From positions 1 to 64,000 of the forward strand of contig JAJRWU010000039.1 of NCBI GenBank assembly GCA_024276655.1: 64,000 nt of DNA, given 5' to 3'. The notes under the pieces were generated by a model that worked only from the letters and a program-made list of their open reading frames with translations, was not told the origin of the DNA and ran no database searches. The stretch comes from Planctomycetota bacterium (lineage in GTDB: Bacteria; Planctomycetota; Planctomycetia; Pirellulales; Pirellulaceae). Both the position numbers and the translations under genes were made by a program. Below are positions 843 to 59,580 of this stretch, piece by piece (position 1 is the first letter of the stretch; every line of letters starts with the position of its first letter).

Positions 843-1832
843 ATGGGCGGAAACTTGAATCGAAGACATTTTCTCGCGGCCGCTTCGCTTACACCCGCCT
901 TGGCGCTGGGGACGCATCGCGTTTCTTGGGCGCAAGCGCCGGAGTTCAATCCTCGGGTGGTGATCCGCCGGTCTTTCCCGCCGATCAAATCGCCTCCAGT
1001 CGTCACGGCGGACAAGGCCGACAAAAAACTTCGGCCGACGGAGTTAGTGCTTGGCGTTGTGGTGAACGGCGCGGCGCGGGCGTATCCGATCAATATGCTG
1101 ACCGGTCCGCGTCGTGAAATCATCAACGATACGCTCGGCGGTTCGCACATTGCGGCTACGTGGTGACATCTCTGCCACAACGGCATCGTGTATGCCAGAG
1201 ACGTCCAGAACCGCGAATTGAACTTTGCCGTATCGGGCATGCTGTGGAACCGCAGCCTGGTGATGAAGGATATGGAAACGGAAAGTTTGTGGAGCCACTT
1301 GCTGGGCCTTTGCATGCGAGGGCCGCTGAAGGGCGCTGAACTCACGCTGCTGCCCTCGATGATTACCGATTGGAAAATATGGCTCAGCCGGCATCCTCAA
1401 ACCACGGTGTTGCACCTATCGCGGACTTCAACGAACTACCTCGCCGAGTTTTATAAAGACCCGTCGAGGTTCGTGGTGGCCATGGCGGAGGGCGGCGAAG
1501 CTCGCGCATGGTCGTTTGCCGATTTACAAAAACAACCGGTGGTCAACGACGCCTTCGCCGGCAAAAAAATTGTTGTCTTGTTTCAAAAATCATCCAGCAC
1601 GGCGTCGATTTTTGCACGTACTATTGGCGCGAGAACGCTTGTCTTCCAATGGGTTGATGGCAAACTGCAAGACGAACAAACGCATACGCTCTGGGATATC
1701 GCCAGCGGCGTCGCGATTTCCGGTGAGTTGAAGGGGCAGGCGCTGCAACCGGCGTTGGGAATCGTTTCGTATGCAAAGGCGTGGCGCGTGTTCCATCCCA
1801 ATTCCACCTATTGGAACGCGAACGGTTCGTAA
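843..1832 (+). CDS. DUF3179 family exported protein, candidate selenoprotein with in-frame UGA
   Basis: The N-terminus has a Tat-like signal (NRRHFLAAASLTPALALG). The frame stops at TGA 1164-1166 and continues in the same frame to TAA at 1832, giving 329 residues if the UGA is read. Both halves match DUF3179: RAYPINMLTGPRREIINDTL before the stop, and CHNGIVYAR, FAVSGMLWNRSLVM, GPLKGAELTLLPS and a second IVSYAKAWRVFHP block after it. Family members have a CxxC-type motif (TWCxLC) exactly here. This gene reads TW-UGA-HLC, so the stop sits on the first Cys and leaves U-x-x-C at codons 108-111. A hairpin at the right distance follows. The function of DUF3179 is unknown to me; a redox role is inference. 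The alternative is a nonsense mutation or read error (TGC to TGA). Confidence 0.8.
1167..1203 (+). promoter_or_regulatory. Candidate bacterial SECIS element after UGA 1164-1166
   Basis: Upper stem GGCAT (1182-1186) pairs with ATGCC (1192-1196) around the loop CGTGT (1187-1191). Lower stem TCTCT (1169-1173) pairs with AGAGA (1197-1201), which abuts the upper stem on the 3' side; an 8-nt bulge lies on the 5' side. The loop starts 20 nt after the UGA and has G at its second position, within the usual range for bacterial SECIS hairpins. The same spacing and loop start recur in the second UGA gene. Not folded by computation. Confidence 0.5.
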
Positions 1833-52341: not shown

Positions 52342-55320
52342 TCAATCGTTTTGAAGAAACAAACGCTCATCGCCTTCAATGAGCAGATACGTTTCGCCGA
52401 CGCCGACGTCTTGCCATGCCGCAACACGGCCCGATGGCCAGCACACCTCCAAATGATCGATTTTTTCGGCGGCGCCGCAGCCCACAAGAATTTTGGGATC
52501 GTTGGCGGCGAAATACCCTCCGCACCGCGTGACCTGAAAGTGATGGGTTTGGTCGCCGATGCGCGCCCGAACCAGCGCGCCGATCGCATCTCGGTTCGCG
52601 GCGACGCCCGTCAGCCGTAGCACAATGCGGTTGCCGGCGGCCGATCGGTTCTCCAGCAACGACACATTGCCCGTCTGATAAGTGACGGCCACGTCGGTTT
52701 GTCGATCTCGGTTCCAGTCGACCAGCGCGACGCTTCGCCCCAATCTGGGTTGGCGAAAATCGTCGCCGGCGGTCTGCGACACTTCGCCAAAGCGGCCGTG
52801 TTTCAGGTTGTAAAACAGTTGCGCCCGCTGGGGAATTTCATGCAAAAGGCCGTTTGCCACGAAGAGGTCTAGACGGCCGTTGCAGTCGATATCCAAAAAC
52901 TGGCAGCCAAAACCGAGCCGGTTGCGGCTTGCATCGGCCAACCCGGATTTTTCGGTGGCATCGGCAAATAGGCCGCCGCCGAGATTTTCGTAGAGCGTGT
53001 TGGTTTCACCTTGGAAGTTGGTCACGAACAGATCCAGCAGGCCGTCGCCGTTGATGTCTCCGGTGGCGACGCCCATGCAAGCTTCCGACAACCCACGGCC
53101 GTTCACCGCCGCGCCGGCCGCGCCGGCGTTGTTTTGAAAGCGGACGGTCGACCCATCAACACGCTGGAAGAGAAAATTGGCGGTGGTGTCGTTGCCCACG
53201 AAGATGGAGTCGCGGCCATAGCCGTCAAAATCGCCGCTGTCGAAATTGACGAAGGCCACTCCCAGGCCCTTGCCATCGACGGCGGTCAGCCCATACTCCT
53301 TGGTTTTGTCGACGAAATGTCCTTGCCCGTCGTTTTCCCAGAGCGTGTCTTGCACGGCGGCGAATCCAAACGGGCGGCACGACGTATAAGCGCCGCGTAG
53401 TTTACAAGGCGTGAGGCTCTCGTAATCGGCGTCCAAATAATGCACGACGTACAGATCAAGATCGCCATCGCGGTCGATGTCGCTGAAGGCGGCGCTGGTG
53501 CTCCACTTGGAGCTAGAAACGCCCGCCGCCCGGCTCACGTTTTTGAACGTCCCGTCGCCTTGATTTTTGAACAGCAAACACGCGCCGTAATTGCAAACCA
53601 ACAAATCGGCGAAGCCGTCGTTGTCGTAGTCGCCGACGGCGCAGCCTTGGCCGTAGGCGCTGTCGGATAATCTGGCAGCCGCCGTGACGTCTTGCGCGGC
53701 TTCCCCGCCCACGTTTTTGAACAGCCGATCCTGGGCGGCGGCAGATTGGCGAACCGGCAGCGGCCCGCCTTGCGTAAAATAAAGATCATCCCAGCCATCG
53801 CGGTCGTAGTCCAACACCGCAACGCCGCCGCCAAGCGTTTCCATGAGCCAACGGTAGGGCGAACGCCCTGTATCGTATTGGAACGACAACCCAATTTCCT
53901 GAGCGATATCGACAAACCGCAACGCGCCAACACCGCCGTTGGCAGCGCTGTGCGTGGCGGCGTTTGCGTCTGGAAGCCGATGCTCTGCAATTGCGTTTGC
54001 TGGCGGACGCGTTTGAATACTTTTGAGAGGTATGAAATCGGCCGCGGCCGTTAGCAGCGGCTCTTTCGGCGAGGATTCTGGCGTGGCGATGCTTTGCCCT
54101 TGCGAGAGAATCTTGGCTTCTCGGCCGAACCCCAACTTCGCAAACGCCTCCCGCGCCCGGCGCATTGTCACGGCGACCGGCTCCACTGCCTGAACCGCCG
54201 GGTTGGAAGCCTCCATGAGGCGGCTCATGAATCGCATCAACTCTTTCTGCTGCTGCGATCGCTCGAACAGCGCGTTGGCCTGCTTGGCGTTTACGTCGGC
54301 GGCCAAAATTCGCGACGCCGCGTAACTTGCCGTGGGGTCGTAGGGATCGAGCGTGGCCGCGTTCTTCCAGGCAACCAGCGCTGCGGCGTTGTACCCTAAC
54401 TCCTGCCAGACGCGCGCGCGCACCAGCCAGGTTCGGCTCTCGCCATCGGCCGCGATTGGAAAATCGTTCAGCGTGGCGAGCGCACGATGGAAATCGCCTT
54501 GCTCGACTTCCCGTTCAGCGCGGGCCAGTTGAATCCTCCAAAATTCGGGGGCGTCGGGCGGCGCTCCGGTGATCAGTTTCCGGGCTTCGGCGTTGCGGCC
54601 GTCGTGGCCGTGGTTATGAATGAGCGCGGCGCGCACGATCGTGTTGGCGGGCTCTTCACGCAGACATTGCTCCAGCCACACGATATGTTCGTCGTCGTCC
54701 CATGAAGCGCGATGGGCCACGACGCGCATCGCCAGATCGATCGGCGAGAGCATGTTCTGTTTGTCCATCAGGGCGCTTTGTTCGTAGAGCTTTCGCTGCT
54801 CTAGGAGCACGAAATATTGACGCAGCAACAGCCGCCGCGGCCCAGGCAAGGTGGGAGCTAGGCGAATCGCCTCTTTTGCCAAAACTTCGGTCATTCGCGC
54901 ACGGCCTAGTTGCATGGCCATTTGCGAGGCGCGAAAGCGGGCTGTTGCGGCGGCGCCCTCCGCCGCCGATTCCGGCAAGCGGCGAAGCCATGTGATGGCT
55001 TCAGGGAAGTCGCGTTGGCGCTCCGCGATTTCGCCCAAGGCTTGAATCAGGCCGATGTGTGATTTATTTTCCGCATGGAGTTTGAGCAGTTCGCTCCGTG
55101 CGCCGGCTAGGTCGCCTTCATACACGAGCAGTTTGCAATCGGTGAAGCGTTCCTCAAAGCGGCTGTCGTCGGTAAAGAACACGAACAGCGCGCTGATGAC
55201 AGCCGCAACGGCGAGCAACGAAAAAAGGAAACCCAGTGTTCGCAACAGAGATGAAGCAGCACTATTTCCCATTCCATTGCACCCGCTAAAGATCTGCTCG
55301 AAATATTTATATCGTCGCAT
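52342..55320 (-). CDS. Membrane-anchored TPR plus FG-GAP/ASPIC-UnbV protein
   Basis: 992 residues from ATG 55320, overlapping the previous gene stop (TGATG). A membrane helix (LGFLFSLLAVAAVISALFVF) is followed by about 400 residues of TPR-type helices (LKLHAENKSHIGLIQALGEI, HRALATLNDFPIAADGESRT). The C-terminal half is an FG-GAP/VCBS propeller with calcium-type DxDxDG repeats (VAVLDYDRDGWDDLYFTQGG, FSDIDRDGDLDLYVV, GDINGDGLLDLFVTNFQGE), then an ASPIC/UnbV module at the end (IVLRLTGVAANRDAIGALVR, EVCWPSGRV). It is probably displayed outside the cytoplasm. It is the last gene of a four-gene operon. Confidence 0.85.
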   Translation of the reverse strand: MRRYKYFEQIFSGCNGMGNSAASSLLRTLGFLFSLLAVAAVISALFVFFTDDSRFEERFTDCKLLVYEGDLAGARSELLKLHAENKSHIGLIQALGEIAERQRDFPEAITWLRRLPESAAEGAAATARFRASQMAMQLGRARMTEVLAKEAIRLAPTLPGPRRLLLRQYFVLLEQRKLYEQSALMDKQNMLSPIDLAMRVVAHRASWDDDEHIVWLEQCLREEPANTIVRAALIHNHGHDGRNAEARKLITGAPPDAPEFWRIQLARAEREVEQGDFHRALATLNDFPIAADGESRTWLVRARVWQELGYNAAALVAWKNAATLDPYDPTASYAASRILAADVNAKQANALFERSQQQKELMRFMSRLMEASNPAVQAVEPVAVTMRRAREAFAKLGFGREAKILSQGQSIATPESSPKEPLLTAAADFIPLKSIQTRPPANAIAEHRLPDANAATHSAANGGVGALRFVDIAQEIGLSFQYDTGRSPYRWLMETLGGGVAVLDYDRDGWDDLYFTQGGPLPVRQSAAAQDRLFKNVGGEAAQDVTAAARLSDSAYGQGCAVGDYDNDGFADLLVCNYGACLLFKNQGDGTFKNVSRAAGVSSSKWSTSAAFSDIDRDGDLDLYVVHYLDADYESLTPCKLRGAYTSCRPFGFAAVQDTLWENDGQGHFVDKTKEYGLTAVDGKGLGVAFVNFDSGDFDGYGRDSIFVGNDTTANFLFQRVDGSTVRFQNNAGAAGAAVNGRGLSEACMGVATGDINGDGLLDLFVTNFQGETNTLYENLGGGLFADATEKSGLADASRNRLGFGCQFLDIDCNGRLDLFVANGLLHEIPQRAQLFYNLKHGRFGEVSQTAGDDFRQPRLGRSVALVDWNRDRQTDVAVTYQTGNVSLLENRSAAGNRIVLRLTGVAANRDAIGALVRARIGDQTHHFQVTRCGGYFAANDPKILVGCGAAEKIDHLEVCWPSGRVAAWQDVGVGETYLLIEGDERLFLQND

Positions 55321-56399
55321 CAGGCGGCGAGATCGGCCGCGATAATCTTCCGGTTGCTGTCGCCGGGTTTCATTTTCCAAATGTAGCCGTCCACGATAAA
55401 GTGATGCAGGTTCACCACCGCGATCACGAGCAAAACGCTCTCCGCCGGACCGAACCCCAACCAGATATAAGCCTGCGGCCAACAGTTAAACAAGCCGTAC
55501 CCCAGCAACAGGCTGGCAGCGTAAAACCAAACCACGTGGTACAGCGCGCCGCGGCGGTTTTGGGGCCGCGCCCGCTGCTCCTTGACGTGGAAAATCGTGG
55601 CGATGCACAGGTACTGAATTCCGTGGAAGACCGTCGCCCAAACGAAACCATCGTAGTGCGTGAACACAATGAACCAAATTCCGTTCGCCACCACAACCAA
55701 CAGGCTGATCAGCGGCATCGGACCCGAAGCACTCCGCCAAACACTGAAATAGAGCAACGGCGGCAGTAGAATCGCGGCGACGCCCAGCACAGCAGCCAAA
55801 ATCTGCACCGGCAACGACCACGGCGCGACGGCAATCGCGGTTGCGTTGGGCATGAACCACCAGAAGAAATGTTTGTCGGACGACAGCAGCAGCAAACGTA
55901 CAAACGGAATGATGGCGATCCACCACAGCAGGTTCTTGTGCGCGGGGCTAAGTTGGCAGCCCGAGCGATAGCTGTACATCACCGCTAGGCCGTAGGCTTG
56001 GGCCGCGTAATGAAAGGGCGCCCAACTCAAGTAAATCGCCTGCAAGATGGGGCCTGTTTGGTCGGCCAGCACCAAGCTTGCCGTGAGCACCGCGATACTC
56101 AACAGCGGAAACGCCATCGTCAAAAACGGCAACGCCTCCCGGGCCCCCGGCTTGGTGTACAAGCGGACGGTTGAGGCCGCGAAGTGGGCGCTGTTGCTCA
56201 ATAGAATGAACCACGGCAACAGGCCGAACGAGATCATCGATTGCCCGCCGGAAAAACCGTAGCGCAGCGGAATCACGATCAACGATAAACCGCCGCCGAT
56301 CAACAAGTAGTCGAACACGGGATGCAAGAACGTGCGGCCGAGCAACCGCTCTGATCGCCATCCTGTAATTGCTTCTCTTTCCACGCTTGCTTCCGCCAT
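55320..56399 (-). CDS. Polytopic membrane protein, function unknown
   Basis: 359 residues with about nine membrane helices (FDYLLIGGGLSLIVIPLRYG, LLPWFILLSNSAHFAASTVR, PLLSIAVLTASLVLADQTGP and others). Recurrent His residues at helix edges (NSAHFAAS, WAPFHYAAQAYGLAVMYSY, VFHGIQYLCIATIFHVKEQR, VNLHHFIVDGYIWKMKPGD) look like possible metal or heme ligands. The gene overlaps the next one by one base and follows the small TPR gene by 17 bp, so it belongs to the ASPIC operon. No enzyme family is recognised with confidence. Confidence 0.7.
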   Translation of the reverse strand: MAEASVEREAITGWRSERLLGRTFLHPVFDYLLIGGGLSLIVIPLRYGFSGGQSMISFGLLPWFILLSNSAHFAASTVRLYTKPGAREALPFLTMAFPLLSIAVLTASLVLADQTGPILQAIYLSWAPFHYAAQAYGLAVMYSYRSGCQLSPAHKNLLWWIAIIPFVRLLLLSSDKHFFWWFMPNATAIAVAPWSLPVQILAAVLGVAAILLPPLLYFSVWRSASGPMPLISLLVVVANGIWFIVFTHYDGFVWATVFHGIQYLCIATIFHVKEQRARPQNRRGALYHVVWFYAASLLLGYGLFNCWPQAYIWLGFGPAESVLLVIAVVNLHHFIVDGYIWKMKPGDSNRKIIAADLAA

Positions 56400-57102: not shown

Positions 57103-59580
57103 TCAGTGCGCCGCGCCGTGTTCGCCCGGCGTGACACGCTCGAACCGGCCTGTTTTTTCGTCGACGATGATGTGGCCATCGGCCGGAATGTGTTGCAACA
57201 CATGCACGGCGCCGTTGGGCCAACGCACCTCCAACGTGTCTATTTGCGGGCTATCGCCGAGGCCGAAGTGAACAAAACTCGCCGACTGCGAATGAAACGT
57301 GTTTGCCGGAAACAGTTCCCTCACGATGTTGCGTTCGGCCACCGTGGCGGTGATCCTGGCGCCAATTCCCAAGCGGTTACTAACACTTCCCCGCAACGAG
57401 ACCTTCAAATAGCGTCGTTTAGGAAAATGATTCTCGAACAACAACAGCGACCCGCCGCCGGCTTGTCGGACCAAGAGATCCATCTGGCCGTTATTGCGAA
57501 AGTCGGCCGCGACCACCGAACGGCCGTCGCCATCGGAGTCGGCGCCGGTCAGGTAGCTGATATCCGAAAATTGGCGGGCGCCAAGATTGAGGTAGGTCCG
57601 ATTCCGTTCAAACCCGCTCAGATTATGTTTGAAGGCAATCTCCCAGGGGTCGGTTTCCCAAAACTCACCGAGTTTGGAGTCGAGCGTTTTGGGCGCCGCG
57701 ACAGTCGCTCCACGGTCGAAAGGCTGTGACACGACAGCCATCCAGAAGCAATTTCAGCCATCGGGTTTGCGGCGATCATGGCTCATGAAGCCGCATGTGG
57801 AGTGGATATCGAGCAAGCCATCGTTGTTGAGGTCGACCAACACCGGGCCCCAACTCCAGCCCACGTTGGCGATGCCCGCCGCGTCGGCGATCGATTGGAA
57901 GTGAAAGCCGCCTTCGTTCAAATGCAATTCGCTTCCGGCCACCATCCGCCGCAGTTTGCGGAGCGTTTCGGTTTCATAAGAATCCGAGGGAAGGTTATCC
58001 ATCACTCGATTGCCGGCCTTGGAATACATGTTCGAGACGTACATGTCGATTTGGCCGTCGTTGTCGATATCGCCCAGGGCGAGCCCCATGGAGCCGAAAT
58101 CGGCGGAGGCGTCACCCAAGAGGCGTTCGGTGAAGCTCCCGTTTTTCTGGTTCACCAACAGTGCGCCGGCGCCGAATTCGTGAATCACGTACAGGTCGGG
58201 CCAGGCGTCGTTGTTGGCGTCGAGCCAACCGGCGGTGAAGGCGGAACGCCGCCCGCCATCGGCGCCGGCTGTTTGCGTGACATCTTCAAACCGGCCGTTC
58301 CCCAGGTTGCGCAAGAGCTGATTCCCGCGAATGTTGCCGCTCTTTCCGTCGACCCACGATCCTTTCTTGTGTTCGCGCGTGTCGGCCCGCGTGATGTAGA
58401 TGTCGATCAGGCCATCTCGGTCGAAGTCAGCGACGCTGGCGCCGCTGACTCCGTCCATCCCCGCTTCCAGAACGAGTTGCGGCAGGTTGCTGTCTTTGCG
58501 GAGTTGGAAGATCTTGCCTTGCCGATTCAGAAACACGCCCCAACCGATAAAGAACAGGTCTTCCCAGCCATCGTTGTTGATGTCGACAAAAACAGCTTGC
58601 GTGACTCCCGGCAGGTCGGGCAAGCCGATGCGGTAGGTGACGTCTTCAAAACGTCCTGCGGGCAAGCAGCGATAGAACCGAGGGTTGTGCGCGGTGCGTT
58701 CCGCCATGACGAGCACATCGGTGTAGCCGTCGCGGTCGAAGTCACACAAGTACACGCCGCCCGAGGTGATCAGACGCTCCTCTTTTTTGGCCTGCCAGTT
58801 ATCGAAGAGGTCGTCGGTTTTGAAGCCGCGCTGCTCGGAAACTTCTCGCATCAGCGGCTGCGGCGAGCGGCGAACGTCTATCTGGCTGACCACGCATTTC
58901 TCCAGCCAGCCGCCAGCTTGCAGGATTTCCTCGGTCGGCGATAGCGTGCGAAAACTGAGTTGAACCAAAACCTCTAGCATCTGGCCAGCGCTCCCCTGGC
59001 CAGCATTTCCCGTCCCCTGGATTCTCAAGCGGCAGCGCCCTTCCCAACCGCCTTCGAGGTTGTTTCGATCGAGTGGGGCGAGATGCAGCAGTTCGAATTT
59101 TATTGAAGGCGCGCCACGGGAAATATTTTGAGGCAGTTCCAATAGCCAGAGCGCGAATTCGTCTTGATTGAGCAACTGCGGCGTCTCCACGCCGATGACG
59201 CGCGAAGCGGTAATAGAATCTTTTTCCCAGCGAATTTCAGCCGCCTCCGAGGGAACCGAGGCCTGGAAATCAGGCGAACAAAATCTCGCCACTGCTGCGG
59301 GCTCGCCGGCCAGCAAAGCTTTGGAAAGCGCGGAGAAACCTATTTGGCCCAAACGATTTCCATAGTGCTCGCATTCCCAAAGAAACGCACGCTCGGCAGC
59401 CGGCAAGATGGAATCGTCCGACGCGTCGGCGGCCGCGGCGTCAGAGGAATTATTGGCAGCGGAAGAAACCGCGCTGTTGGCGTCGTTTGAGTTGGCGTCA
59501 TCGGTGTTGCCGTGGCAGCCCGCCACCAGAGCAGCGACCGCAAAGCATAAGGCGACCGGAATGAGAACCAGACAACGCAC
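57103..59580 (-). CDS. FG-GAP/ASPIC-UnbV lipoprotein, candidate selenoprotein with in-frame UGA
   Basis: A GTG at 59580, with GGAGG upstream, starts a lipoprotein signal (CFAVAALVAGC, lipobox LVAGC). An FG-GAP propeller follows (YLCDFDRDGYTDVLVMAE, VFVDINNDGWEDLFFIGWGV, ASVADFDRDGLIDIYITRAD, LDANNDAWPDLYVIHEFGAG). The frame stops at TGA (57754-57756) right after GFMSHDRRKPDG and resumes in the same frame with NCFWMAVVSQPFDRG. It then runs through VVAADFRNNGQMDLLVRQAG to an ASPIC/UnbV end (LEVRWPNGAVHVLQHIPADG). Neither half is complete alone. UGA followed by Asn-Cys gives U-x-C at codons 609-611, a redox-like pair. A hairpin in the same geometry as the DUF3179 gene follows. The alternative is a TGC to TGA mutation or read error. 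Confidence 0.75.
57722..57756 (-). promoter_or_regulatory. Candidate bacterial SECIS element after UGA 57754-57756
   Basis: On the minus strand GGCTGT (57739-57734) pairs perfectly with ACAGCC (57727-57722) around the loop CGTGTC (57733-57728). The loop begins 20 nt after the UGA, as in the DUF3179 gene, and also starts CGTGT with G at position 2. Beyond a U-U mismatch, a weak lower stem (TGGA against TTCG, with two wobbles) can extend it. Not folded by computation. Confidence 0.48.

Follow-up and report, generated by a model that had tools for sequence, protein, structure and literature searches.

Does the in-frame TGA at positions 57754–57756 (minus strand) of the window, by which we mean the whole 64,000-nt stretch of DNA analysed, break a gene or encode an amino acid? 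The codon is the sole internal stop in a frame spanning 57103–59580 (minus strand), where it is flanked by the segments KPDG and NCFWMAVVSQP. Reading through it yields a single chain of 825 residues, with the UGA at residue 609, FG-GAP repeats upstream of the codon and an ASPIC/UnbV domain (Pfam E 8.5e-18) wholly downstream, at 57178–57369 (minus strand; residues 738–801). A Cys codon lies at 57748–57750 (minus strand). The original prediction, that a single TGA splits one FG-GAP/ASPIC frame with a Cys two codons on, thus held. We conclude that this TGA very probably encodes selenocysteine (Sec, U), in what is likely a cell-envelope redox enzyme; the evidence is comparative, without protein-level or selenium data. 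The selenocysteine reading rests on the exclusive conservation of TGA, the existence of Cys homologues, a SECIS-type hairpin and full Sec machinery in the genome.

The gene ends with another TGA (57103–57105, minus strand), which is read as a stop; UGA is therefore not globally reassigned. Near the N-terminus the protein carries a VAGC lipobox, whose Cys (59515–59517, minus strand) is predicted, by motif inference, to attach lipid after export. The window protein meets CRTAC1-like criteria, with FG-GAP repeats followed by ASPIC/UnbV and a propeller fold. It contains no WCxxC thioredoxin-like domain, the chain ending 216 residues after Sec. An adjacent gene at 52342–55482 (minus strand) encodes a TPR and FG-GAP/ASPIC protein without a UGA, and the window's genome holds a second TGA copy of the family on another contig (C11).

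The codon is conserved far beyond this genome. A separately assembled MAG from this genus carries TGA at the same position (L007/L248, 94% identical). Scanning species genomes gave 80 loci, 48 of which have an aligned in-frame stop; all 48 stops are TGA, and these loci are distributed over Planctomycetota, Verrucomicrobiota and Acidobacteriota. Because the 48 loci had been chosen for having a stop, whole genomes were then searched with a profile (A3) that covers 142 positions around the codon. Among 60 relatives, each listed match with an internal stop has exactly one TGA, and the same is true of the listed stop-containing matches when 294 genomes from across the phylum are searched. All fetched loci together provide 178 distinct homologous sites, comprising 133 TGA, no TAA, no TAG, 11 Cys (TGC or TGT) and 34 other sense codons. 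These counts, like the existence of Cys homologues, are shown by computation, and they uphold the earlier claim that the UGA is not a random nonsense change.

The 11 Cys sites belong to one clade. Ten loci account for thirteen of the 34 other sense sites; these are distant homologues of Bacteroidetes type that align poorly at the column, and all 13 were excluded from the tree and from the Cys counts. In diverged paralogues the column is filled by Glu, Gln, Asn, His, Arg or Ala, and none of these paralogues has the strict hairpin described below. We regard these sense-codon paralogues as probable secondary losses, because the strict hairpin is missing and, in one clade, the partner cysteines are lost as well. 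The original prediction had proposed looking for Cys or UGA at this column in homologues, and both were found; it had also named a residue that is neither as grounds for refutation. That condition is literally met, in diverged paralogues without the strict hairpin.

A SECIS-type hairpin, GGCUGU-CGUGUC-ACAGCC, occupies 57722–57739 (minus strand), with a 6-bp stem, a 6-nt loop and G at loop position 2. Published bSECIS rules call for a loop of 3–9 nt, a stem of 4–16 bp, G in the first two loop positions, 16–37 nt from UGA to loop and an MFE of no more than −7.5 kcal/mol (PMC13188914). The window hairpin satisfies all of them, its loop starting 20 nt past the UGA and its energy lying between −7.8 and −11.7 kcal/mol. 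In the common register a 6-bp stem occupies nucleotides 12–17 and 23–28, and the loop is usually GGUCG; in the window's subfamily the register is 3 nucleotides farther downstream. A strict 6-bp stem in either register is present at 121 of 133 TGA sites and at none of 45 sense sites (0/11 Cys, 0/34 other sense). Under a relaxed test requiring at least 5 bp and G in the first two loop positions, the hairpin is found at 133/133 TGA sites, 0/11 Cys sites and 8/34 other sense sites (8/45 sense overall). The 36-nt MFE criterion is satisfied by 130 of the 133 TGA sites.

Stem pairing lies far above a synonymous-codon expectation. The stem averages 5.80 of 6 pairs versus 3.79 (sd 0.15) under a null in which synonymous codons are redrawn from the same gene, and the maximum of 1000 draws was 4.33. 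The fourth stem pair varies among A-U, G-U, G-C and C-G, including compensatory A-U, G-C and C-G changes, and in some members a codon change swaps Ser for Pro or Ala while the base pair is kept. The hairpin is shown, by computation, at the level of the family. Taken singly, the window hairpin is weak evidence: under the synonymous null its P value is 0.026 at its own register and 0.44 for any 6-bp hairpin, the wider region around the UGA does not fold with unusual stability (z −0.57), and the hairpin matched no SECIS family in Rfam. It is the family that carries the argument.

The machinery for Sec insertion is also present, as shown by computation. The window's genome encodes SelA adjoining SelB on one contig (C296), SelD on another (C177) and a tRNA-Sec with anticodon UCA. 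SelA was detected in 55/60 TGA genomes versus 138/234 others in the phylum sample (p 3e-7), in 20/21 versus 21/39 among the relatives, and in 36 of 41 TGA MAGs across the three phyla; Fisher p-values overstate the significance here, as related sequences are not independent. Eleven TGA genomes lack SelA, and nine of these have a SelB match at E 1e-50 or better, below the family cut-off in two (G120 and G386). The other two, G003 and G352, have TGA members, and at the thresholds applied no SelA or SelB was detected in them. G003 (loci L127, L156 and L247) is rated 99% complete and has a perfect hairpin with a TGA member.

The family falls into subfamilies that differ in the apparent partner of Sec. 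In the window's subfamily the motif is KPDG-U-x-C-x-W-x-AVVSQP, and the Cys at Sec+2 is kept in 13/13 members; only 3/13 have a Cys at the ERN-C position, and the chain stops before any thioredoxin domain. A larger group, subfamily 1, has the motif GDL-U-SFFWRQVVS, lacks U-x-C and mostly continues with S-F after the codon. Here a Cys in an ERN-C motif follows about 48 residues after Sec, at 101 of 120 TGA sites (all TGA sites outside the window's subfamily, pooled) and at none of 32 Cys or sense sites. A WxxxCxxC thioredoxin motif is found in 44 of 48 full-length homologous TGA loci and, in subfamily 1, is mostly followed by further sequence that in some members includes TPRs. The U-x-C redox pair proposed in the original prediction is upheld for the window's subfamily, where the motif is invariant, but is not family-wide, and its redox role is inferred.

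In seven sense-codon paralogues of subfamily 1, all from one genome family (f50), the column holds Glu, Gln or Ala. The thioredoxin-like domain is retained (E 1e-8 to 9e-21), but a CxxC downstream of the site, ERN-C and the strict hairpin are all missing. This joint loss of redox residues is shown by computation and is the main evidence that Sec, partner Cys and thioredoxin CxxC work together as one redox relay, an arrangement that we consider probable; it is inferred from co-occurrence, with activity untested and no atomic distances. Thioredoxin-like domains without CxxC are seen in sense paralogues L158–L163 and L166, for example as WATWDAPS in L162.

In AlphaFold models of the window protein (pLDDT 76, pTM 0.81) and of a fused homologue, L023 (pLDDT 87, pTM 0.88), Sec begins a helix that lies between propeller repeats. 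An Asp at Sec−2 and a Trp at Sec+4 are invariant in alignment A1. In the mechanism that we propose, the SECIS hairpin immediately downstream of the UGA would direct SelB-bound Sec-tRNA to the codon and so yield an exported lipoprotein of 825 residues that combines an FG-GAP propeller with ASPIC/UnbV; Sec insertion itself is inferred. The product would most likely be a cell-envelope redox enzyme with Sec as the reactive residue, its substrate being unknown. Sec and a second Cys may form a selenenylsulfide, to be re-reduced by a thioredoxin-type protein; both the catalysis and the selenenylsulfide are inferences. For the larger subfamily, the resolving residue would be the Cys that follows Sec by about 48 positions, with the fused TlpA/ResA-like domain as reductant. 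In the window's subfamily, the resolving Cys would be that at Sec+2, and the reductant would necessarily be a separate protein. The neighbourhood of the window gene is not kept outside its genus, so no partner reductant could be identified for the U-x-C subfamily.

Copy number reaches 24 TGA copies plus two Cys copies in one genome (G005). At least five tandem TGA copies lie within about 15 kb in G174 (C253:28861–43718), and similar clusters occur in G204, G290 and G346. In a quick tree of 142 columns the window's subfamily and the Cys type each form a group (SH-aLRT 99 and 97, respectively) that also takes in a single long-branched sense row; most deep forks are unresolved. Because the tree is only a quick one, we make no claim about Sec-to-Cys polarity. 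Near-identical Acidobacteriota members (L016, L030, L032, L034, L036, L039, L042, L049, L052 and L072) nest among Planctomycetota sequences in this tree, suggesting horizontal transfer. No family match was found in the listed f21 genomes, which are mostly near-complete; the family may be concentrated in other lineages.

Could the TGA simply mark a broken gene? A nonsense mutation, a pseudogene or an assembly error might be suspected, since ORF callers divide the gene in two and the assembly, a MAG, is fragmented into 328 contigs. However, the TGA is shared with a separate MAG of the genus and recurs at 133 distinct sites, never as TAA or TAG, and the frame is open and conserved on either side. 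Exclusive TGA conservation over three phyla refutes this explanation for practical purposes, leaving it all but ruled out. A different possibility is that a suppressor tRNA or a reassigned code makes UGA specify a standard residue such as Trp, Gln or Arg. Some paralogues do have Gln, Arg or another residue at the column, which could be taken to favour it, but TGA also serves as this gene's own terminal stop, no sense site has the strict hairpin, some homologues have Cys in place of the UGA and the Sec machinery is present, making reassignment highly improbable.

Two further alternatives accept Sec insertion. Sec read-through is generally inefficient, and termination at the UGA could be regulated, the main product being the 608-residue N-terminal part and read-through minor or selenium-dependent. 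Against this, the downstream half is strongly conserved with ASPIC intact, and in subfamily 1 it carries thioredoxin and TPR domains; there is little to recommend this account. Alternatively, Sec may be inserted and yet not act as a thiol-type redox catalyst, serving instead in metal or metalloid binding or in structure. FG-GAP propellers commonly bind metal ions, the substrate of the window protein is not known, and in formate dehydrogenase and NiFeSe hydrogenase Sec coordinates a metal (PMC13188914). Yet a partner Cys and a thioredoxin CxxC accompany Sec and are missing in paralogues that lost it, a pattern that fits thiol exchange; we consider a role other than thiol-type redox catalysis unlikely, though less remote than the preceding alternatives. 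Selenocysteine in a redox enzyme remains the preferred reading. A bolder form of it, which we consider probable, is that these proteins make up a hitherto unreported selenoenzyme family, expanded by lineage and built on a propeller-ASPIC scaffold, spanning at least three phyla with up to 24 Sec copies per genome, in which Sec, resolving Cys and a dedicated thioredoxin reductase reside on one exported chain and the redox parts are lost as a unit.

Selenoproteins themselves are a known kind; FG-GAP/ASPIC selenoproteins as a family are apparently, and in our judgement probably, unreported. They are absent from the table of 119 prokaryotic selenoprotein families or subfamilies in an inventory of May 2026 (PMC13188914), the window protein has no NCBIfam match above cut-off (June 2026), and a literature search combining selenoprotein with FG-GAP or ASPIC/UnbV returned nothing relevant, preprints and most closed papers being outside its scope. 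Such genes may have been missed because ORF calling with UGA as a stop cuts them in two, which suggests that the selenium demand of uncultured planctomycetes and their relatives is underestimated. The 24 Sec copies of one family in a single genome can be set against the 57 and 63 selenoprotein genes, all families included, of the largest bacterial selenoproteomes quoted (PMC13188914). The fusion of Sec, Cys and thioredoxin is a directly testable one-chain redox relay, for which the Sec-less paralogues are natural controls.

Most characterised selenoproteins have a thioredoxin-like fold (PMC13188914). The window holds a second in-frame UGA, and the original prediction of two such cases in 64 kb held; the other lies at 1164–1166 in a DUF3179 gene (843–1829, plus strand; Pfam E 1e-62), where ATW-U-HLC gives U-x-x-C. 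DUF3179 is already listed as a selenoprotein family with UxxC/T (PMC13188914); U is first in its UxxC, and its domain is unrelated to that of the window protein. The thioredoxin-like selenoprotein Sec.2 (PF13192) shares UxC with the window's subfamily but has a different domain and no propeller (PMC13188914). In overall architecture the closest likeness is to CRTAC1: murine CRTAC1 (PDB 9etn), also propeller-ASPIC, is the top structural match of both the window-protein and L023 models (TM 0.69 and 0.72 by target length). Of the exported, calcium-type propeller in the original prediction, the exported propeller is supported by the lipobox and by CRTAC1 as best solved match, calcium binding remaining a prediction only. 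CRTAC1-type proteins are not known to contain Sec, and the Sec family differs from CRTAC1 in its Sec-bearing insertion and its extra fused thioredoxin/TPR part. The C-terminal domain of subfamily 1, with WATWCxPC, matches the thiol-disulfide oxidoreductases ResA and TlpA; unlike these, that domain, absent from the window protein, is fused in subfamily 1 behind a Sec-containing propeller.
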